The notes under the pieces: generated by a model
What the model was told of the DNA's origin: nothing
The model's input: only the letters and a program-made list of their open reading frames with translations
Databases searched by the model: none
Part shown: piece after piece, positions 812 to 11,235 of the stretch
Layout: every line of letters begins with the position of its first letter
How positions within the stretch are numbered: the first letter of the stretch is position 1
Translations under genes and position numbers: made by a program
Source of the DNA: Minisyncoccota bacterium
GTDB lineage: Bacteria > Patescibacteriota > Minisyncoccia > Phycocordibacterales > UBA9973
Assembly: GCA_018061035.1 (NCBI GenBank)
Contig: JAGOUX010000005.1
Span: forward strand, 1-53,136
Direction of reading: 5' to 3'
DNA: 53,136 bases

Positions 812-1393
812 CTACAGATGAGTTTCTTTGAGTGCTTTGTTGATTTGAGACAATACTTCTGTGCGAGCCTGCGAAGCTTCGAAAATGAGACTCTCTTCAA
901 ATGGAGACTTGATAATATTTTCTAAAGTCGCACTACCACCTATATAACCCAAATTGTCTAAGATACGGAGCACTATAATTGCCTCAATATTACGAAGATC
1001 TTCATTTTTTTCTACTTTTTCAAGCATCAACAGTCCATTTACCAAATCTTTAAACAATGCTTCGTTCGGGTCCTCTCCTGCCAAAAGGCGTTTGAGTAGT
1101 CTGGTAATATTCGCAAAAACTGCGAGAGCGCCCTTTTTGGCCGTAATATCTTCGAGCATGTTGGTCTTTGAAGCGCTCGTAACTCGCCAAAAGTCTTTGC
1201 CCTTCACTAGGTCAACTTTTATATATGAGAAATCCTGAAGGATGAAACGGAGCTTGGAAGACATCTTCCGTACGCCCTGCGCCGAAGCATAGATCATGCC
1301 GAGGTCGCGAGTAAACAGGAAGTAGTACTTCCCCGCTTCGCCATAATTACGGCTTCCTAATATTATTCCTTCGGTGTGATAAATGTGGTGCAT
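812..1393 (-). CDS. recO: DNA repair protein RecO (short form)
   Basis: RecO promotes RecA loading and strand annealing together with RecR. The N-terminal third (1-75) has the RecO OB-fold pattern, including the typical opening with a T-E-G-I-I-L stretch and a segment around residues 38-46 (A-Q-G-V-R-K). A helical domain follows. At 193 aa it is shorter than the usual 230-250 aa, and it contains no cysteine at all, so the C-terminal zinc site of many RecO proteins is absent. The start overlaps the stop of the upstream gene (TAATG), indicating translational coupling. It is the last gene of the minus-strand run that starts at the ileS T-box. Confidence 0.85.
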   Translation of the reverse strand: MHHIYHTEGIILGSRNYGEAGKYYFLFTRDLGMIYASAQGVRKMSSKLRFILQDFSYIKVDLVKGKDFWRVTSASKTNMLEDITAKKGALAVFANITRLLKRLLAGEDPNEALFKDLVNGLLMLEKVEKNEDLRNIEAIIVLRILDNLGYIGGSATLENIIKSPFEESLIFEASQARTEVLSQINKALKETHL

Positions 1394-1902
1394 TAAAGAT
1401 TTCTTCCAATCGGGTTTGGAATTATTTTTGTAAAATCATTTAAATCATTCTTGTCAGTCAAAAATATTCCCAGCTTGCCTTCTAGTAAATATATAGTCAC
1501 ATGCATAGGTGGGCATTCTAGATTGAGATTGTATTTTTCATTTAAAATATCAAAAAATTTATTTATATTGGAAACTTCACAGAAAACTACGATAGACTTT
1601 TGATCATTTTGTTCTAAAAATCTAAATTCATTTGTATATTTAATCAAATCGACATCATTCCCTTGCACAAAATTACAAAAATCAGCCACCACAGAATCTT
1701 TGAAATTTGTATCCATGATTTTATTCTTACGAATTATCTCATTTATACATACCAAGCTTATGTGGAAAGCACTTTTGACCACCAAATCGCTGTTCTCTAC
1801 ATTTATTCTCGCTGGTAAATTCGAAATATCTACCGACAGAGCAATGGTATTTGTGCCAGAAATTGTATACTTATTACCACAAATAAATTTCTTATTTTCC
1901 AT
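1393..1902 (-). CDS. 2H phosphoesterase-like protein (hypothetical)
   Basis: This 169-aa protein carries two H-x-[S/T] motifs, H47-I-S and H134-V-T, each followed by hydrophobic residues. That is the signature of the 2H phosphoesterase superfamily (RNA ligase/cyclic phosphodiesterase type). The rest of the fold is too divergent to name a substrate. I use the ATG at 1902, one base after the stop of the upstream gene; an ATG at 1914 would add four residues. It sits between a metallo-beta-lactamase gene and recO in a tightly spaced operon. The assignment rests on the two motifs only. Confidence 0.5.
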   Translation of the reverse strand: MENKKFICGNKYTISGTNTIALSVDISNLPARINVENSDLVVKSAFHISLVCINEIIRKNKIMDTNFKDSVVADFCNFVQGNDVDLIKYTNEFRFLEQNDQKSIVVFCEVSNINKFFDILNEKYNLNLECPPMHVTIYLLEGKLGIFLTDKNDLNDFTKIIPNPIGRNL

Positions 1903-1903
1903 A

Positions 1904-2527
1904 TTATTCAGCATTTAAAATACCTTTTGATAATTCTAAAAACTTCTCAATGTGCTCTATCTCACCACGCTCGTGCATCGCTACCACCTTACCTATACTT
2001 TTAAATTTCTTGGCAAAAATAAATGCTTCTTCTGGGCCAAATGTATAAAAAGCACCCACAGGAATAAGGGCTAAATCCAATTCGAGTTGAGAGACATCGA
2101 TACCCGATTCATAAAACATATCACCAGCAAAATAAACCTTTTGACCATCAATCTCTAAAAGAAAACCTAAATTTTCTTTTAAGACTGATTTAACGTTTGG
2201 ACCATGGTCTACATAAAAGCAAGAAACTTTTATACCACCTATATCTACGGCATCACCATCTTTAATTTGGATTATTTCACCTGGAACACTAGACTCAGAT
2301 AGCGCGTCGATGCATTCCTGATTTAAATATATTTTTTTCGGACTAAGTTTTTGTATGTGCTCTAGTGAAAGATGGTCAGGGTGAATATGAGAAATCAAAA
2401 AAGCGTCTACAGACTGCACACCGTCTAGCTTTTCTATTGGTGTTCGCGTGGCTATGTCTAAAGCCAATCTAAAACCCGAATTGGTCTCAAAAATGAATCC
2501 TGATTGTTCGAATCTGGTTATTTTCAT
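1904..2527 (-). CDS. Metallo-beta-lactamase fold hydrolase
   Basis: This 207-aa protein has the metal-binding motif H47-x-H49-x-D51-H52 and a downstream F-A-G-D motif supplying a further metal ligand, as in UlaG-like and related small MBL-fold hydrolases. The substrate cannot be told from sequence. The ATG at 2527 overlaps the stop of the upstream alpha/beta hydrolase (ATGA), the usual sign of coupled translation; the open frame extends further upstream to 2626 but only through the neighbour's coding region. It is cytoplasmic, with no signal peptide. Confidence 0.8.
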   Translation of the reverse strand: MKITRFEQSGFIFETNSGFRLALDIATRTPIEKLDGVQSVDAFLISHIHPDHLSLEHIQKLSPKKIYLNQECIDALSESSVPGEIIQIKDGDAVDIGGIKVSCFYVDHGPNVKSVLKENLGFLLEIDGQKVYFAGDMFYESGIDVSQLELDLALIPVGAFYTFGPEEAFIFAKKFKSIGKVVAMHERGEIEHIEKFLELSKGILNAE

Positions 2528-3087
2528 TTCATCATTTCTGTTAAAGCTTCTAAGGCCTCTGGCAATTCGTGCCAGCCAGAAGAACCGTTGAGGTGTCCCC
2601 CGTTTGGTATTGTGATTAATTTGCAATTCAAACTTTTTGAAAGCTCTGCTGCATGCTCAAATGGCACACTGGAGTCATTGTCTCCATGGACCACAACAAA
2701 ATTTTTACAAACTTTTTTAATATGCTCAAAATTAAATGGTTGTGCGGCGAAGTTGTTGATGTCATCATTTGTATCGTCTTCAATCTTTCTGGCGAAACCG
2801 GATGCAAGCAAAGCACCTCCAAAATTGGCCCCATCAGGAAGACTGTCCAAATATCGCAACACTGCTGGCACACCAAGGGAGTGCCCCACAAGAAAAGTCT
2901 CATCATCTGGCTGTCCAACCTCACTAGCGATTTTATTTACCCATTCTTGTGCTAGGGGTTTGGCTGGTGTAGGCATGGACAAAGCACATGCCCAAATATC
3001 CATACGTGCCAATTTACCCATAAGCCACGGCCTCCAGCCACCATTCGGCTCACCCTGGAAACCATGCACCATAAATACCTTTTTCAT
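2524..3087 (-). CDS. RBBP9/YdeN-type alpha/beta hydrolase
   Basis: A 187-aa serine hydrolase. It opens with the family's V-H-G-F strand-loop, has the nucleophile elbow G68-H-S70-L-G72, an acid at D138 (G-D-N-D) and a histidine at H165 (G-G-H-L). This triad and the size match the RBBP9/YdeN family of small serine hydrolases. The natural substrate is unknown. It is co-directional with the HD gene upstream (4-nt gap) and overlaps the MBL gene downstream by ATGA. Confidence 0.85.
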   Translation of the reverse strand: MKKVFMVHGFQGEPNGGWRPWLMGKLARMDIWACALSMPTPAKPLAQEWVNKIASEVGQPDDETFLVGHSLGVPAVLRYLDSLPDGANFGGALLASGFARKIEDDTNDDINNFAAQPFNFEHIKKVCKNFVVVHGDNDSSVPFEHAAELSKSLNCKLITIPNGGHLNGSSGWHELPEALEALTEMMK

Positions 3088-3091
3088 AGTC

Positions 3092-3733
3092 CTATTTTAT
3101 CACAAAGTCTCGGAGCTGTAATACTATCGGTGCTACTACCTCGTCTGTGATATCTTCTGGTTTTATTTTAGAAAATGAGAAAATCTGCTTCTCTATTTCC
3201 ATCAATGAGTTAAGAACATTGTCATGCCCCAACTCTATTACATCATAATTTTTATGATATCTCTTGGCACCTTCTTCCAAGCGGCCCTTTATGGAGACAA
3301 TATTTTTAGGCGCCACTCGCTGGTCTACATAAAAACAAATCTTTTTATTCAAGTCTTCTGACTCTAGATTCTTCTTCCAGTTTGGAAAACCGAAAGTATC
3401 AATATAGGGCATCAGGTCTTCCCTGCCTACTTCTTTTACAATCATCCGAGTGGCTTCTGTCTCGTTTTTGCCATATTTATTTATGTATTCATCCTTTACG
3501 TTCTGCCAATATGGCACTCCTTCCGGCTCGAATGTTTCTGGATAATATGTCATATCTATTTTGATAATGTTACCCATGTCGTGGAGTAGACATGTAGAAA
3601 GGATATTTTCTCTGTCTACTGGCACATTCATAGAATCGCAGACTATCTGCGCCACTGCTGCCACACGAAGCATATGCAATTGCAGGAAAGGTAAAACTTT
3701 ATACTCGGTATAAATTTCACTTATGGTTTTCAT
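3092..3733 (-). CDS. HD-domain phosphohydrolase
   Basis: A 213-aa HD-superfamily protein with H20 in the first helix, the HD pair H51-D52 in a C-L-L-H-D-M-G-N context, and further helical segments typical of small HD hydrolases acting on nucleotides or nucleotide monophosphates. The ATG follows the ileS stop directly (TAAATG), so it is translated from the ileS transcript and should fall under the same T-box control. The substrate cannot be read from the sequence. Confidence 0.75.
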   Translation of the reverse strand: MKTISEIYTEYKVLPFLQLHMLRVAAVAQIVCDSMNVPVDRENILSTCLLHDMGNIIKIDMTYYPETFEPEGVPYWQNVKDEYINKYGKNETEATRMIVKEVGREDLMPYIDTFGFPNWKKNLESEDLNKKICFYVDQRVAPKNIVSIKGRLEEGAKRYHKNYDVIELGHDNVLNSLMEIEKQIFSFSKIKPEDITDEVVAPIVLQLRDFVIK

Positions 3734-6700
3734 TTATTTTGAGATTTTTACCTTAAATGCCAAGTCGCCTATCTTGATCACTTCACTATCATTCTCTCTG
3801 TACTCAATCTTGGATACCAACACAGTCTTTTTGATTTCTGTTTCGAATTTCTCCACTAGCTTCTGCCCTACTGGTGTAGTGGATATAGATAAAGTCACCA
3901 CCTCGCTCGGAGTGAGGCCCATCTTCTTGCGCATATCCTGCAAGGCTCGCACCAGCTCGCGATAGTCTCCCTCTTGCTTGAGCTCGACTGTGATATTAAT
4001 ATCAAGACCAAAATCTCCGACATTGTACTCTCGCACATTGAGCTCGTCTTTGATGATCTCTACATAGATATCAGGCACTTTTGGACCAGTGGCACTAGCG
4101 AGGGGCTGGCGGACAGGGATATTCTTCTGTTGTCTTTCTTTGAGAAGTGCAGACACTATCTCTCTAGCCTTGGTCATATCGTCTACTACAGTGGTCTTGG
4201 TGCCAAATATTTTCTGCAAAAATCCAGGGAGGACTGTCCTTCCTGAACTAGGCCATACTGCCAAATGCACAGACTCTTCGTCTTCTTCTATCTTCAATTT
4301 TTGCCAGACATCTTCTGCAGTAAATGGCGCAAATGGAGCCAAGAGCTTGGATATAGTCTTGAGAATAAAATACAAAGTTTGTTTTGCTTCTACCTCCCCG
4401 TCCTTTATCCTGTCGCGACTTCGGCGTAGGTACCATGTAGAAAGCTCATCGATAAACAAATCTATCGGCCTAGTAGCCTCAGCCATATCATAATTTTCCA
4501 TTCCTTTTGTAGTCTCCGCCAGTATTCCCTCTAAGCGGGCCAAGATCCACTGGTCTAGAATATTTTTGGATGTTGACCTTATATTGTTCTCAATATTTTT
4601 ATCTCTGTAGAGCTCGTAAAATGCAACGACGTTATAAAATCTGCCGATTATTTTACTTGCAATATCTTGTACTGACTTTTCGGTAAAGTTTGCATCCTCT
4701 CCTTTCATAAGTGGTGAAGACATCAAATACAACCTAAGAGCATCTACTCCGTATTTATCTATGAATACCCATGGATCTGGATAATTGTTCTTAGACTTAG
4801 ACATTTTCTCTCCGTCTTCTGCTCGCACTGTACCAGTCGTCACCACATTTTTAAATGCAGCTTCACCAAAGAGCATAGTGGACACAGCATGTGTGTAGTA
4901 GAACCAAGTTCTGGTCTGCGCAATATATTCTGCAATGAATCCTGCGGGGAAATTGTTACTCTTCCAATTCTTATTTTCAAATGGATAGTGGTCCTGGGCA
5001 AATGGCATGGAGCCAGACTCAAACCAGCAGTCTAGTACCTCCGGAATTCGATTAACTATTTCTCCACACTTACAGACCATCTCTATCTCATCTATATATG
5101 GGCGGTGTAGATCAAGCTCATAATTAGCATTGTGTGGAAACGGCACAAAATTAATATCTCGAATAGCAGCATTTGGTAGATCATCTAGATGACTATTGTT
5201 GGTATCATCTATCATCTGATAAGTCTCTTCCATCGTAAACATGTGAGCACCCGCACTCATCAGCCACGCAGGTGAACCATGGGTGATAAATAATATATTT
5301 TTATTCTTATATTTATTCTCTACATCCCACAATACCTGCATCACTCGCCTTTTCACATCCTGATATGACTCATCGCCATCTCTTTTTGAAGTAAAGTATT
5401 CTTTAGTCTTTGGAAATACATCATGATATTCCTTCCATGTCTTACCTTCAAAAGAATGTACACCAAGCTCTGAAAGCCTTTCATCTATGACCATATCGTT
5501 GGCGGACAAGCCTAAAGCTTTGCGCACTATTTCTGCTGTCTCCTTGGTACGAAGAAATGGGGAAATGATTAATAAATCAATTTTTTTATCTTTGAGCTTT
5601 AAGGCAGCCTCCAACACCTGCTCTTTGCCATGCGCAGTCAGCTTGTCAGTATTTTTTGCATATGAACTTATACCCCAATTTAAATTGTGAGTAGATTCTC
5701 CATGCCTCATGACAGTGTAAGTATTTCCAGACTTCTTAGTTTTATCTTTCAAATCCTGAATAGAGCTTGCAAAAATTTTCTCCTTGCATTTTTCGCATTT
5801 CCAAATAGGCAATGGGCTCGCCCAATACCTATTGCGAGAGATATTCCAATCTGGTGCATTCTCTACGATATTTTTGAATCTTCCCTCTTTGAGGTGTGCT
5901 GGTACCCAGTTGATACTATCTGCTTCTCTGACTATATTTCCTTTTTCCTTCGTGATATTGATAAACCATGATGGTAACGCATAGTAGATTATAGGTGTGT
6001 CACAACGCATACAGTGCGGGTATGAGTGCATTATTTTCTCCTTATCAAAATATGCATTACTCTTTGGGTCTTGTAGGTATTTAATGATTTCGATATCTGT
6101 ACGAAGGTGCGCATCCTTATCCTCGGGTGTATCTTTTGGTTTTACCTTTAGGCCCTTGAAGTCTGTGACCGCATCCACAAATCTACCTTGCACATCTACA
6201 TGAGTGATCCAAGGGATATTGTTTGCTTTTGCTAGGACCATGTCTTCTTCACCAAAAGCTGGTGCTTCGTGAGCAATACCAGTACCCTTCTCAGTAGTCA
6301 CAAAATCCGCATGCCACACTTTATAAATATTTTCTTTATTTGGCATTACTGCATCTTTGTAATACGGAAAAACTGGTTTGTATTTTTTACCAACCAAATT
6401 ACTACCTTTCATTTCTTCTAATACAGTGTATTTCTTATCTTTAAAAACATTCGCCAGATTATCCTTGGCTAATATATAGACTTCATCATCCATTTTGATC
6501 TTGGAGTATACAACATCTTTATTGACTGCAATTGCTGTATTACCTGGGAGTGTCCACGGAGTAGTAGTCCAAGCTACAAGGTATGTACCTGGCTCGTCTT
6601 CTAGCTCAAACTTTACGTAAATAGAAATATCCGCTATATCCTTATAGCTATTGTCCATCGCGATTTCGGAGTTTGCGATCGGAGTCTCACATCGTGCGCA

Positions 6701-7243
6701 ATATGCAAGCACGCGCACACCTTCGTATATCAAATTCTTCTTGTTGAGCTCGGAAAGTGCCCACCATACAGACTCGATAAAGGTATTATCCATAGTCTTG
6801 TAGCTGCCTTTAAAATCCACCCAGCGGCCAATACGCTCGATACCCTTTTCCCAATCTTTGTCGAATTGTAGTACCTTACTGCGTGCGTACTCTACGAATT
6901 TATCTATACCAAGAGCTTCGATCTCTTTATGACCAGCAATGCCAAGCTCTTTTTCTACAATGTTTTCAATAGGCAAACCGTGGCAATCCCAGCCCCATTT
7001 GCGAGGCACATAGAATCCTTGCATTGTTTTATATCTACCCACGACATCTTTCGCTGTAGAGCCCAAAATATGGCCATAGTGCATCTGCCCTGTAGCAAAA
7101 GGTGGACCATCATAAAATACATAATGCCCCTTTGGAGAATTTTTCTTGAGGGACTTCTCAAACATTTTGTTTTCTTTCCAAAATGTTAAGATCTTTTCTT
7201 CCTTTAATGCTTGCTCACTTTTTTTGTTTGTATTTGTTTCCAT
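3734..7243 (-). CDS. ileS: Isoleucyl-tRNA synthetase with embedded histidine phosphatase domain
   Basis: This 1169-aa class I synthetase charges tRNA-Ile. It shows the HIGH-type motif H55-Y-G-H58, the CP1 editing region (T-T-T-P-W-T at about 226-231) and the catalytic loop K813-M-S-K-S817. The C-terminal anticodon and helical domains follow. Between the first zinc cysteine pair (C483, C486) and the second (C724, C726), residues about 507-705 form a complete histidine-phosphatase domain. Removing it restores normal IleRS spacing, and the total length exceeds the usual 920-1050 aa by about that amount. A palindromic insert codes for residues about 1000-1007 in a linker. A T-box leader controls the gene. 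The synthetase assignment is secure; the role of the extra domain is unknown. Confidence 0.97.
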   Translation of the reverse strand: METNTNKKSEQALKEEKILTFWKENKMFEKSLKKNSPKGHYVFYDGPPFATGQMHYGHILGSTAKDVVGRYKTMQGFYVPRKWGWDCHGLPIENIVEKELGIAGHKEIEALGIDKFVEYARSKVLQFDKDWEKGIERIGRWVDFKGSYKTMDNTFIESVWWALSELNKKNLIYEGVRVLAYCARCETPIANSEIAMDNSYKDIADISIYVKFELEDEPGTYLVAWTTTPWTLPGNTAIAVNKDVVYSKIKMDDEVYILAKDNLANVFKDKKYTVLEEMKGSNLVGKKYKPVFPYYKDAVMPNKENIYKVWHADFVTTEKGTGIAHEAPAFGEEDMVLAKANNIPWITHVDVQGRFVDAVTDFKGLKVKPKDTPEDKDAHLRTDIEIIKYLQDPKSNAYFDKEKIMHSYPHCMRCDTPIIYYALPSWFINITKEKGNIVREADSINWVPAHLKEGRFKNIVENAPDWNISRNRYWASPLPIWKCEKCKEKIFASSIQDLKDKTKKSGNTYTVMRHGESTHNLNWGISSYAKNTDKLTAHGKEQVLEAALKLKDKKIDLLIISPFLRTKETAEIVRKALGLSANDMVIDERLSELGVHSFEGKTWKEYHDVFPKTKEYFTSKRDGDESYQDVKRRVMQVLWDVENKYKNKNILFITHGSPAWLMSAGAHMFTMEETYQMIDDTNNSHLDDLPNAAIRDINFVPFPHNANYELDLHRPYIDEIEMVCKCGEIVNRIPEVLDCWFESGSMPFAQDHYPFENKNWKSNNFPAGFIAEYIAQTRTWFYYTHAVSTMLFGEAAFKNVVTTGTVRAEDGEKMSKSKNNYPDPWVFIDKYGVDALRLYLMSSPLMKGEDANFTEKSVQDIASKIIGRFYNVVAFYELYRDKNIENNIRSTSKNILDQWILARLEGILAETTKGMENYDMAEATRPIDLFIDELSTWYLRRSRDRIKDGEVEAKQTLYFILKTISKLLAPFAPFTAEDVWQKLKIEEDEESVHLAVWPSSGRTVLPGFLQKIFGTKTTVVDDMTKAREIVSALLKERQQKNIPVRQPLASATGPKVPDIYVEIIKDELNVREYNVGDFGLDINITVELKQEGDYRELVRALQDMRKKMGLTPSEVVTLSISTTPVGQKLVEKFETEIKKTVLVSKIEYRENDSEVIKIGDLAFKVKISK
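4225..4245. repeat. Palindromic element copy 1, inside ileS
   Basis: A 21-nt palindrome with arms CAGGGAGGAC and GTCCTTCCTG around a single T (plus strand), 9 of 10 positions paired. It shares the core AAGGACAGTCCTT (sense strand, last base C here) with copies in recJ and yifB, but is read in a different frame. It encodes part of a surface linker (S-G-R-T-V-L-P) near IleRS residue 1003. Confidence 0.6.
5128..5725 (-). other. Inserted histidine phosphatase domain within ileS
   Basis: IleRS residues about 507-705 contain the histidine-phosphatase signature: R513-H514-G515-E-S (catalytic His), an S-P-x-x-R-T motif with R565, an acidic E-R-L-S-E segment near 588-592, and a second histidine in T-H-G-S at H655. 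All core catalytic positions of the phosphoglycerate mutase/SixA-like superfamily appear intact, so an active phosphatase is plausible. The domain is in frame with no stop, and splits the synthetase zinc-binding module. Confidence 0.85.
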
Positions 7244-7412
7244 ATAAAATTAAAAAACTCGTCCCCGAACTACAACGTTAGTTATAATTCAAGGACGAGT
7301 TTCCCCGTGGTACCACCTTGTTTGCTTCTTAATTTAAGGGTTCTACGGCCCCAGTAACTTACTGCTGGCTTTCTTCCCAAAGCTCCAGGGTGATATCCCC
7401 TTCAATGCTTAT
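7244..7412 (-). promoter_or_regulatory. T-box riboswitch upstream of ileS
   Basis: On the minus strand the leader contains the T-box sequence AAGGTGGTACCACGG at 7305-7319, whose TGGT can pair with the 3' ACCA end of uncharged tRNA (discriminator A, as in tRNA-Ile). It lies immediately upstream of a strong intrinsic terminator. A candidate specifier ATC (isoleucine) sits at 7392-7394 near the 5' end of the transcript. Low isoleucyl-tRNA charging should stabilise the antiterminator and allow ileS expression. The upstream Stem I region looks short and I cannot fold it with certainty. Confidence 0.85.
7253..7302 (-). terminator. Intrinsic terminator of the ileS T-box
   Basis: Arms AACTCGTCCTTGAA and TTCGGGGACGAGTT pair with a G-T wobble and are followed by a run of T just before the ileS start. 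The 5' arm directly follows the T-box sequence, so antiterminator and terminator are mutually exclusive. Confidence 0.85.
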
Positions 7413-7418
7413 ATTTAT

Positions 7419-9059: not shown

Positions 9060-10769
9060 CTACATCTTCTCCGGAGCTTCTACGCCCAAGAGATTAAGAC
9101 CCTTCTTCATAACGAAAGAAAATGCATATGTAAGAGCAACTTTATATGGAGAAGTGCGATCATCCTTTTTTACAATTACTGAGTTGCCATAAAAGCTATT
9201 GAAGGCACGAGCAAGCTCAATCAGATATGTGGCAATATGGTGCGGTTCGGATTCCTCTGCAGACCGAACGACTACCTCAGAGAATCGATAGAGCAGTCTC
9301 TCAACTTCTGTTACTTCTTCAGGAACTGTATCAAAATCAGGCAAGACATTTTCAGTTTTAGACTTTTCAGTTATGGAGTGAGCGCGTGCATATGAGTATT
9401 GTAGGTATGGGCCAGAATCCCCTTCGGTAGATATAGATTCTTCTACATCATATACAATGTCGCTTCCTGCTTTTGAGCGAAGAATAGAGTATTTGATTGC
9501 TGCCACTCCTACAACTTCTGCGATTTTGTTCTTTGCATCATTATCAAGCTCTCTGTCTTTGAGCTTCTCTCCGATAACCTCTATTGTGTCTCGGATCAAT
9601 GACTCGCCTGTAACAATATTTCCCTTTCGTGAACCCATCTTACCTGTTGCGAGACGCATCATACCGTGAGTGATATGTCTCATCTTTGATTCATATTCTG
9701 GATGTATCAGTGAAATCGCCTTTGCAACCACTCGCATATAGTCAGTCTGCTCGTTGGCGGTGATCACTATTGATAAGTCCATGTTTGGCATTATCTTGAA
9801 TTTCTCTTCGGTTAAGCCAAGTTCTTTAGTCTCATAGGTTGGTAATCCTTGTGAAGTGATGAACACTCGAGTGTGAAGCTTGGGATCATGAGCTTCAGCT
9901 TTGAAAACAACTGCTCCATCTGACTCTTCAAAGACCTTCCCTAAATTCTTTCGAACTAATTCCTCTCCATATGGAGCAACCTTGCTCTCGAGGAAGTAGT
10001 AATCGAATTGTGTACCGAGAATTTTGTATAAATCCTCAAATGCTTCCATTGTAACTTTGAAACCCCAGTCATAAACCTGATTAACCTCTTCATCTTCTCG
10101 GGAATAGATCTTTTTGTTAAGCGCGTCAATTTCCTTTTTCGCTTCCTCATCTTCTTCGTATGCCTTACTACCTAGTACATATGAATCACCGATGTACTGA
10201 GCAATCACAGCAAGAGGAGCATTCATATCTTCAGGCATTCCTTTTTTCTGCATACCATAGAAAGCTCTTGCTACATGAAGCCCCACATCTCCTTGATAGT
10301 TAGCTCGTGAAACTTCGGCTCCGGAGTGTTCAAATATCCTCGAGATGGATTCTCCGATGGCATTTGTCATTAGGTGTCCAATATGAAATGGCTTGAAAGG
10401 ATTAGGATCAGTGTATTCGATCATCACCTTCTTCCCAGCAAGCATTGTATTGGCGCCAACTTCTTTTGTATTTAAAATTTCCTCCACACTTCGGCTAAAA
10501 AATTCTCTTGAGAGATAAAAATTAATGAATCCTGCTCCTGCAACCTCTGTCTTGGAAATTTCTTTCGGCAAATGTTTGATCATCTCCCCTGCAATCTTAT
10601 CCGCAAGCTCTCTCGGATTCATCTTGAGCTTCTTGGCGCAAGCCATTGCGACATTTGTAGAATAATCACCATTCTTAAAATCTTCAGGGTGCTCAACAAC
10701 AAAATCAGCTTGCTCTATATCAAGATTCTTAAGTGCCTGATTAATTAAATTTTTGATTATATCCTGCAT
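9060..10769 (-). CDS. argS: Arginyl-tRNA synthetase
   Basis: A 569-aa class Ic synthetase. It has the N-terminal additional domain (1-90), a catalytic core with H129-I-G-H132 in a P-F-H-I-G-H context, the ArgRS variant of the KMSKS loop (G-S-R-K-G-N), and a C-terminal DALR anticodon domain ending in the family's typical V-E-A-P-E-K-M. The open frame extends upstream to 10880, but that stretch overlaps dut and encodes an unrelated hydrophobic peptide; the ATG at 10769 gives the normal ArgRS start. A structured leader like that of hup lies between dut and this start. Confidence 0.96.
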   Translation of the reverse strand: MQDIIKNLINQALKNLDIEQADFVVEHPEDFKNGDYSTNVAMACAKKLKMNPRELADKIAGEMIKHLPKEISKTEVAGAGFINFYLSREFFSRSVEEILNTKEVGANTMLAGKKVMIEYTDPNPFKPFHIGHLMTNAIGESISRIFEHSGAEVSRANYQGDVGLHVARAFYGMQKKGMPEDMNAPLAVIAQYIGDSYVLGSKAYEEDEEAKKEIDALNKKIYSREDEEVNQVYDWGFKVTMEAFEDLYKILGTQFDYYFLESKVAPYGEELVRKNLGKVFEESDGAVVFKAEAHDPKLHTRVFITSQGLPTYETKELGLTEEKFKIMPNMDLSIVITANEQTDYMRVVAKAISLIHPEYESKMRHITHGMMRLATGKMGSRKGNIVTGESLIRDTIEVIGEKLKDRELDNDAKNKIAEVVGVAAIKYSILRSKAGSDIVYDVEESISTEGDSGPYLQYSYARAHSITEKSKTENVLPDFDTVPEEVTEVERLLYRFSEVVVRSAEESEPHHIATYLIELARAFNSFYGNSVIVKKDDRTSPYKVALTYAFSFVMKKGLNLLGVEAPEKM

Positions 10770-10812
10770 TTGATTTTGCAAATCACACCGCGTAAGTCCT
10801 ATAGGCGCGGTG
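10770..10812 (-). promoter_or_regulatory. Two-hairpin leader element before argS (same family as hup leader)
   Basis: Directly after the dut stop the minus strand forms CACCGCG/CGCGGTG, with an inner CC-TATA-GG and a 3'-side bulge ACTTA. A small hairpin TGATTT-gc-AAAATCA then ends one base before the ATG. The hup leader has the same layout, with compensated stem changes. Confidence 0.6.
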
Positions 10813-11235
10813 CTAACCAGTCGTACCAAAGCCACCACGACTATTACTATCCATAGTATCAGTTTCTTCCCACTCGGCAATGTCTACCTTTATAAATGCT
10901 CCTTGGCCGAGACGCTCTCCTTTCTCAACTTTAACCTCCATGTCAGATATATTGTATACCTGAAGTAGTATCTCGTCTGTCTCCCCGCAATAATCTGTAT
11001 CTATAAATCCTGTGCTTACGAGCAATCCTTTCTTCTTGAGGGTGCTAGATCGGTCCTTGATCTCGAGCATGTAGCCCTTTGGCGTAGCCACTATCACATT
11101 GGTGGGCAAACGTTCTAATGTCTTAGGCGGAATAACAACATCAATTCGAGAGTATAGATCAAAAGCCACAGCTCCAGGAGTCTGGTATATAGGCATCGGC
11201 AAACTTTTATCTATTCTTTTAATTTTTACTTTCAT
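10813..11235 (-). CDS. dut: dUTP diphosphatase (trimeric dUTPase)
   Basis: A 140-aa dUTPase that hydrolyses dUTP to dUMP, limiting uracil in DNA and feeding thymidylate synthesis. All five conserved motifs are present in order: A-F-D-L-Y-S, D-R-S-S, a G-F-I-D-T-D-Y-C-G-E segment, G-E-R-L-G-Q, and the C-terminal glycine-rich S-R-G-G-F-G-T-T-G arm. It lies 1 nt downstream of a Nudix gene and close to tmk, forming a nucleotide-pool group. Confidence 0.95.
   Translation of the reverse strand: MKVKIKRIDKSLPMPIYQTPGAVAFDLYSRIDVVIPPKTLERLPTNVIVATPKGYMLEIKDRSSTLKKKGLLVSTGFIDTDYCGETDEILLQVYNISDMEVKVEKGERLGQGAFIKVDIAEWEETDTMDSNSRGGFGTTG

Follow-up and report, generated by a model that had tools for sequence, protein, structure and literature searches.

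The isoleucyl-tRNA synthetase (IleRS) encoded in the window, as we call the whole 53,136-nucleotide stretch of DNA analysed here, appears to hold two enzymes in one chain. According to sequence and structure prediction, nothing is missing from its synthetase body, and a loop from the second zinc knuckle contains an entire histidine phosphatase of the PhoE/PspA/CobC kind. Judging by its conserved residues, this embedded domain is very probably an active small-molecule phosphatase built into the IleRS. The protein as a whole is probably a bifunctional synthetase whose phosphatase has been retained through a link to branched-chain charging; a nucleoside monophosphate may be its substrate, AMP being a first and doubtful guess. 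The features on which this reading rests are collected in Table 1.

Table 1. Features of the ileS region discussed in the text (window positions; residues are those of the window IleRS).
Feature	Position	Strand	Basis or remark
T-box-like leader upstream of ileS	7288..7414	-	RF00230, 52.9 bits, E 3.8e-11 (231-base search)
ileS, isoleucine--tRNA ligase with embedded phosphatase	3734..7243	-	TIGR00392, motifs, only strong IleRS match
argS	9060..10880	-	Some relatives have a free-standing phosphatase copy between argS and ileS
First zinc pair, C483/C486 (CEKC)	5786..5797	-	Alignment via insert-free relative to 1ile
Histidine phosphatase insert, residues 505-702	5138..5731	-	Pfam, aligned inserts, domain model
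PF00300 His_Phos_1 match, residues 511-677	5213..5713	-	Pfam
R513-H514, RHG motif; H514 expected phosphate acceptor	5702..5707	-	Residue check
R565, second phosphate-binding arginine (SPxxR)	5549..5551	-	Residue check
E592, expected general acid	5468..5470	-	Residue check
H655, second catalytic histidine (THG)	5279..5281	-	Residue check
Second zinc pair, C724/C726 (CKC)	5066..5074	-	Alignment via insert-free relative to 1ile

The ileS gene is a single open frame of 1,169 codons for amino acids. Its product scores 835.8 bits against TIGR00392 (ileS), above the equivalog cut-off of 621.4, and has both active-site motifs, HYGH at residue 55 and KMSKS at residue 813. In Pfam, the protein is laid out as tRNA-synt_1 (residues 18-533, split), His_Phos_1, Anticodon_1 and DUF5915. 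The gene is the only strong IleRS match of its host, a Patescibacteria genome of 0.61 Mb that is 94% complete; on that ground the protein is presumably the isoleucine--tRNA ligase that charges tRNA-Ile. The full-length AlphaFold model has a pLDDT of 91.5, and its body superposes on the IleRS structures 7d5c (Z 45.3, rmsd 3.1, 845 residues), 8c8u (Z 43.8, rmsd 3.2, 922 residues) and 1ile (Z 40.0, rmsd 4.1, 792 residues). The whole synthetase body is thus common to the window protein, the Priestia megaterium IleRS2 (8c8u) and the Thermus thermophilus IleRS (1ile), the last of which also shares both zinc cysteine pairs. Downstream of ileS and before recO lie four small genes (1393-3733, minus strand), whose products are an HD protein, a serine hydrolase, a protein with the metallo-beta-lactamase fold and one that matches no Pfam family; ileS and recO directly adjoin in several relatives. 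ARAGORN found no tRNA genes in the window.

The first-pass annotation had described a complete histidine phosphatase domain between the two zinc-binding cysteine pairs of the synthetase, and this is borne out. The domain is in frame and stop-free between C483/C486 and C724/C726, and matches PF00300 with an E value of 1.1e-27 and 97.5 bits, the gathering cut-off being 21.7. The location first given (5128-5725, or about residues 507-706) holds, and the Pfam domain proper is narrower. The residues C483, C486, R513, H514, S561, R565, E592, H655, C724 and C726 were confirmed directly in the protein; the roles that the RHG motif, the second arginine, the acid and the second histidine have in PF00300 are those we take R513, H514, R565, E592 and H655 to play. 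In the insert-free IleRS of one member of the same genus (genome G017, locus L100), the cysteine pairs correspond to C461/C464 and C502/C504 of 1ile (numbering taken from the alignment of L100 with 1ile), which we take to be zinc ligands. Between the pairs 1ile has 37 residues, whereas the window IleRS has 237, the enzyme included.

Structure prediction, which the first-pass annotation had proposed as a check, gave a model of the domain alone with a mean pLDDT of 93.8 and a pTM of 0.91. The top Foldseek match of this model is PhoE (1h2e; E 4.4e-13, TM 0.73), which places it in the branch-1 fold, followed by PspA (4ij5/4ij6), Rv2419c and a histidine phosphatase of the riboflavin pathway (HFP). 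PspA and PhoE are also its leading matches in sequence. Together, the two models predict a folded module that leaves the synthetase body intact. A profile match at 1e-27, the domain model and an identical architecture in all 30 of the first-aligned relatives argue that the domain is not a product of chance. The window domain has the fold and the full catalytic set in common with PhoE/YhfR (1h2e, 1ebb) and the phosphoserine phosphatase PspA (4ij5), at no more than 23% identity in structural alignments; these are free-standing branch-1 histidine phosphatases, while the window domain is embedded in a synthetase. The named subfamilies of NCBIfam were rejected as identities for the domain, which remains below the curated equivalog cut-offs for CobC (74.4 against 162.9 bits), PspA (44.3 against 350), GpmB (36.5 against 261) and SixA (27.4 against 74.5), cut-offs that were set on whole proteins, so that a fused domain may score low.

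The conservation of the active site argues for activity. Of 154 distinct IleRS inserts, 150 have the whole catalytic set R-H-R-E-H; the inserts were collected with a profile that spans the synthetase flanks, so that dead inserts were detectable and strongly decayed ones could escape. The other four comprise two with R-H-R-D-H, one cut by a run of N (L171) and one with an internal deletion (L232) that spares RHG, R, E and an SH segment. Five inserts (L010, L028, L033, L147 and L159) are shortened in the middle and retain the catalytic residues. The full pentad is also found in 14 of 15 domains of multi-domain IleRS, in eight of ten domains of valyl-tRNA synthetases (ValRS) and in eight of ten free-standing copies of the same clade. 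Across 42 aligned inserts, only eight of 192 well-filled columns are invariant (R9, H10, S57, R61, E88, E121, R129 and H151), and all five catalytic columns are among them (hypergeometric chance 2.7e-8). In 75 full-length IleRS, R513, H514, S561, R565, R633 and H655 are strictly invariant and E592 nearly so, and the invariant phosphatase residues match the lysines of the synthetase's own KMSKS motif in conservation. Mean identity to the window protein is 36% in the domain compared with 48% and 49% in the catalytic body. A domain that drifts fast while its active site stays fixed has the pattern of a working enzyme and points to catalysis rather than padding. The phosphatase residues are better conserved than the zinc knuckle that the domain interrupts. 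The earlier impression that the domain looks active is therefore strengthened by the 150 complete sets, and the degeneracy of these residues in relatives, named at that time as evidence that would count against it, was not found.

The insert is widespread in the lineage. It is present in 30 of 30 IleRS loci aligned from an initial 41 genomes (40 relatives besides the window's own), a set that also includes one genome clearly without it (G017). A survey of the class, using a profile of the zinc flanks plus the phosphatase domain, gave a near-full-profile match in one long ORF in about 117 of 188 genomes (117 being the count of listed rows); the match is cut by contig ends in G104, G140 and G179. 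When 66 class genomes without a full-length match were queried with the window IleRS, 60 of these genomes gave strong IleRS matches, most of them split around the insert. Outside the class, at least 28 of 263 genomes of the same phylum (from a sample of 286) carry it within a long IleRS-like ORF, IleRS identity having been checked for the fetched loci only. No insert match was found at E <= 1e-28 in 299 genomes of another phylum (that of G499), a threshold that would hide weak cases in a search whose only positive control was the external phylum sample. In a scan of named entries at least 74 loci were recovered, almost all titled as Patescibacteria, as its candidate phyla or only as "bacterium"; the candidate phyla among the matches listed include Nomurabacteria, Zambryskibacteria, Taylorbacteria, Adlerbacteria, Yanofskybacteria, Colwellbacteria and others. 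Two of the matches listed that are titled as other phyla (L181 and L183) are free-standing genes of about 200 amino acids. Thus the proposed search of IleRS sequences for a PF00300-type insertion between the zinc halves succeeded across the lineage, and the suggestion that an intact enzyme in this module is rare does not hold within it, given the class survey and the occurrence in ValRS as well.

Some individual loci deserve mention. An entry titled Spirochaetia (L139), with a genome of 0.4 Mb, has a Patescibacteria-type IleRS with the phosphatase and is probably a mislabelled bin. Single in-frame stops interrupt two otherwise open ileS genes (L163:2713-2715 and L174:3065-3067), through assembly error, decay or recoding. 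Two insert-free IleRS of 1,101 and 1,196 amino acids (L247 and L252) have a longer N-terminal part than usual, which suggests other insertions, of about 100 amino acids in L252.

Copy number and host also vary. Several IleRS of one family (L101, L102 and others) have two phosphatase domains, and an IleRS of 1,569 amino acids (L103:1176-5882, plus strand, in G452:C4) has three, at three different places; the same genome has a further phosphatase domain in its ValRS (L279). ValRS with such a domain are L104-L109, L279, L280 and L286, of which L279 and L286 were assigned by Pfam's ValRS arm and L280 by resemblance to the ValRS profile. A ValRS-based profile found the insert in seven of 286 genomes (G188, G230, G269, G271, G407, G441 and G452), and the class survey added G183 and G193. 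In one ValRS of 1,275 amino acids (L109:1333-5157, plus strand, in G441:C13) a HAD domain (227-340), a serine hydrolase (629-770) and the histidine phosphatase (817-1000) occur together. Finally, in seven genomes (G057, G084, G119, G129, G161, G171 and G189) a free phosphatase ORF of 183-209 amino acids lies between argS and an insert-free ileS. Two others (G108 and G173) have a similar free gene away from ileS, and G106 (L215), from the same family as several of the partner-bearing genomes, lacks both the insert and a copy beside ileS.

Phylogenetic analysis relates these forms to each other. In a tree of 134 rows, from a short search and with moderate support, the free partners cluster with the class inserts, and the domains of multi-domain IleRS, of some IleRS from other families and of ValRS fall in several separate groups. 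From these sequences, ValRS appears to have acquired the domain several times. In a tree of 52 rows, from which L010, L028, L033, L159, L163, L174, L232 and the inserts of other lineages were left out as short or deviating, 34 embedded and ten partner rows form one group (100/100); the partner rows include the free copies L218 and L219, likewise from genomes with an insert-free IleRS. A topology with all embedded rows apart from the free ones was rejected (AU p 0.0095) and one with all partners together weakly rejected (p 0.042), both groupings having been chosen after an earlier tree had been inspected. The simplest reading of the interleaved free and embedded copies is one basal insertion followed by several releases to the neighbouring position; the other reading is repeated insertion at one site. 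A FastTree phylogeny of 114 IleRS bodies requires at least 21 changes between insert-bearing and insert-free states, which indicates that the insert is dispensable. In the same tree, members of the window's genus fall in two distant clades (L001/L008/L009/L010/L012/L028 and L015/L016/L017/L022 with others), which suggests horizontal transfer of ileS.

Expression of the two activities may also be joined. The leader upstream of ileS scores below the Rfam gathering score of 93 bits for the T-box family, and no Rfam family reaches its gathering threshold in the window. Its position and its antiterminator consensus fit a T-box, and it is likely a reduced member of that kind that may still function like one. 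Such a leader would raise the synthetase and the phosphatase together when tRNA-Ile is uncharged, placing both under isoleucine control.

Histidine phosphatases act through a phosphohistidine intermediate: the substrate is held by arginines, an acidic residue donates a proton and water hydrolyses the intermediate. By this superfamily mechanism H514 would accept the phosphate of a small phosphomonoester bound by R513 and R565, E592 would protonate the leaving group and water would then free the phosphate from the phosphohistidine. The preservation of the domain in or next to IleRS, and in ValRS in some lineages, would mean that the cell profits from its activity at the place and time of branched-chain tRNA charging. 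The specificity of its hosts, its recurrence and the existence of tandem and adjacent free copies make it probable that retention is tied to the charging of isoleucine and valine; the many uncompensated losses count against this. The likeliest class of substrate would be the nucleoside monophosphates, in the first place the AMP that arises from activation and editing, and the choice of AMP itself is a weak and rather doubtful inference. More broadly, we tentatively entertain the possibility that Patescibacteria repeatedly built the phosphatase into their branched-chain, editing-proficient synthetases IleRS and ValRS, made further copies of it and in some cases set it free as a neighbouring gene, with charging coupled to the removal of phosphate from AMP, from a different nucleotide or from the end of a tRNA.

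Confinement to these two synthetases might merely reflect a loop that tolerates insertions. The domain could then be an active general phosphatase, for phosphoserine, a sugar phosphate or a flavin precursor, parked in an always-expressed gene. Its closest solved relatives (PhoE, PspA, the riboflavin-pathway HFP and CobC) fit such a role, as do the many losses of the insert. We compared 80 class genomes, 40 with and 40 without the insert, picked from the class survey and the IleRS search. Half of the insert-bearing genomes (20 of 40) have no PF00300 match besides the IleRS domain, which could serve housekeeping there. However, 19 of the 40 insert-free genomes manage without any PF00300 match, so the class as a whole does not depend on the function; every match in ORFs of at least 700 amino acids is in IleRS (40) or ValRS (3), the free copies stay beside ileS in seven genomes and the domain has been recruited repeatedly. 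These observations make a parked general enzyme unlikely. Compensation for a missing insert was also considered and discarded: other histidine phosphatases occur in 20 of 40 genomes with the insert and in 21 of 40 without it, in one of the latter solely in ValRS.

The remaining alternatives are less probable. The fold might be kept for stability or as a docking surface for a partner, its chemistry being irrelevant, and might even replace the zinc knuckle; structural padding had been one of the first suggestions for the domain. Of 146 insert-bearing IleRS, 83 retain both zinc pairs, compared with 38 of 47 insert-free ones (Fisher p 0.003; L103 and rows containing X left out), at least one pair being missing in 63 and 9, respectively. 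This difference disappears once relatedness is corrected for (independent tree pairs, median p 0.73), and replacement of the zinc knuckle by the domain was therefore rejected. The catalytic residues are, in addition, the best-kept part of a fast-diverging domain and are retained in free-standing copies, which makes padding improbable. Repair of damaged tRNA-Ile or tRNA-Val, by removal of a 2'- or 3'-phosphate ahead of charging, would suit the position of the domain within a synthetase and the fact that all its large-ORF hosts charge tRNA; against it, the closest solved relatives act on small molecules and we found no tRNA-repair fusion of such a kind in the open-access literature, and we regard it as very improbable. 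Finally, the domain might hydrolyse the pyrophosphate released by amino acid activation in place of a missing soluble enzyme, since PF00719, the one pyrophosphatase family searched, is absent from 60 of the 80 class genomes. There is, however, no inverse relation between the two, PF00719 being present in 12 of 40 insert-bearing and 8 of 40 insert-free genomes, and the window itself encodes a PF00719 match (C16:34355-34816); this replacement was rejected as almost certainly wrong.

Synthetases with added enzyme domains are already known. NCBIfam has a named exception family for an IleRS with an extra enzyme domain (NF040702, ileS_w_GNAT); there the extra domain is an acetyltransferase, and the window IleRS scores 301.8 bits against a cut-off of 1999. 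We found no description of a histidine phosphatase in IleRS or ValRS in the open-access literature, a scope that leaves out most subscription journals and all preprints; domain databases may already display the architecture automatically. The architecture is thus common in the lineage, as the first-pass annotation had allowed it might be, and it was not found catalogued in that literature. The closest parallel is the methionyl-tRNA synthetase (MetRS) of Mycoplasma penetrans, likewise a synthetase of a reduced-genome bacterium that bears a whole extra enzyme. Its aminotransferase is reported to be able to supply the enzyme's amino acid, and the authors left open whether it matters to the cell (PMC7694997). 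That aminotransferase is an N-terminal appendage, whereas the window phosphatase lies inside the catalytic body.

Few enzymes are as conserved as the aminoacyl-tRNA synthetases. The retention of an entire phosphatase within the catalytic body of an essential synthetase, across a large class, predicts an undescribed activity, and one purified protein together with a point mutant would be enough to assay it straight away. The repeated gains by IleRS and ValRS, along with the tandem copies and free neighbours, offer natural comparisons for why an enzyme joins a synthetase, the question that the MetRS-aminotransferase case leaves open (PMC7694997). An answer would also uncover some of the physiology of bacteria that have scarcely been cultivated. 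From their sequences, cells with the insert seem to run a dephosphorylation step on or beside a tRNA-charging enzyme; if this is true, these proteins would form a new class of bifunctional synthetase, in which that step is coupled to charging.
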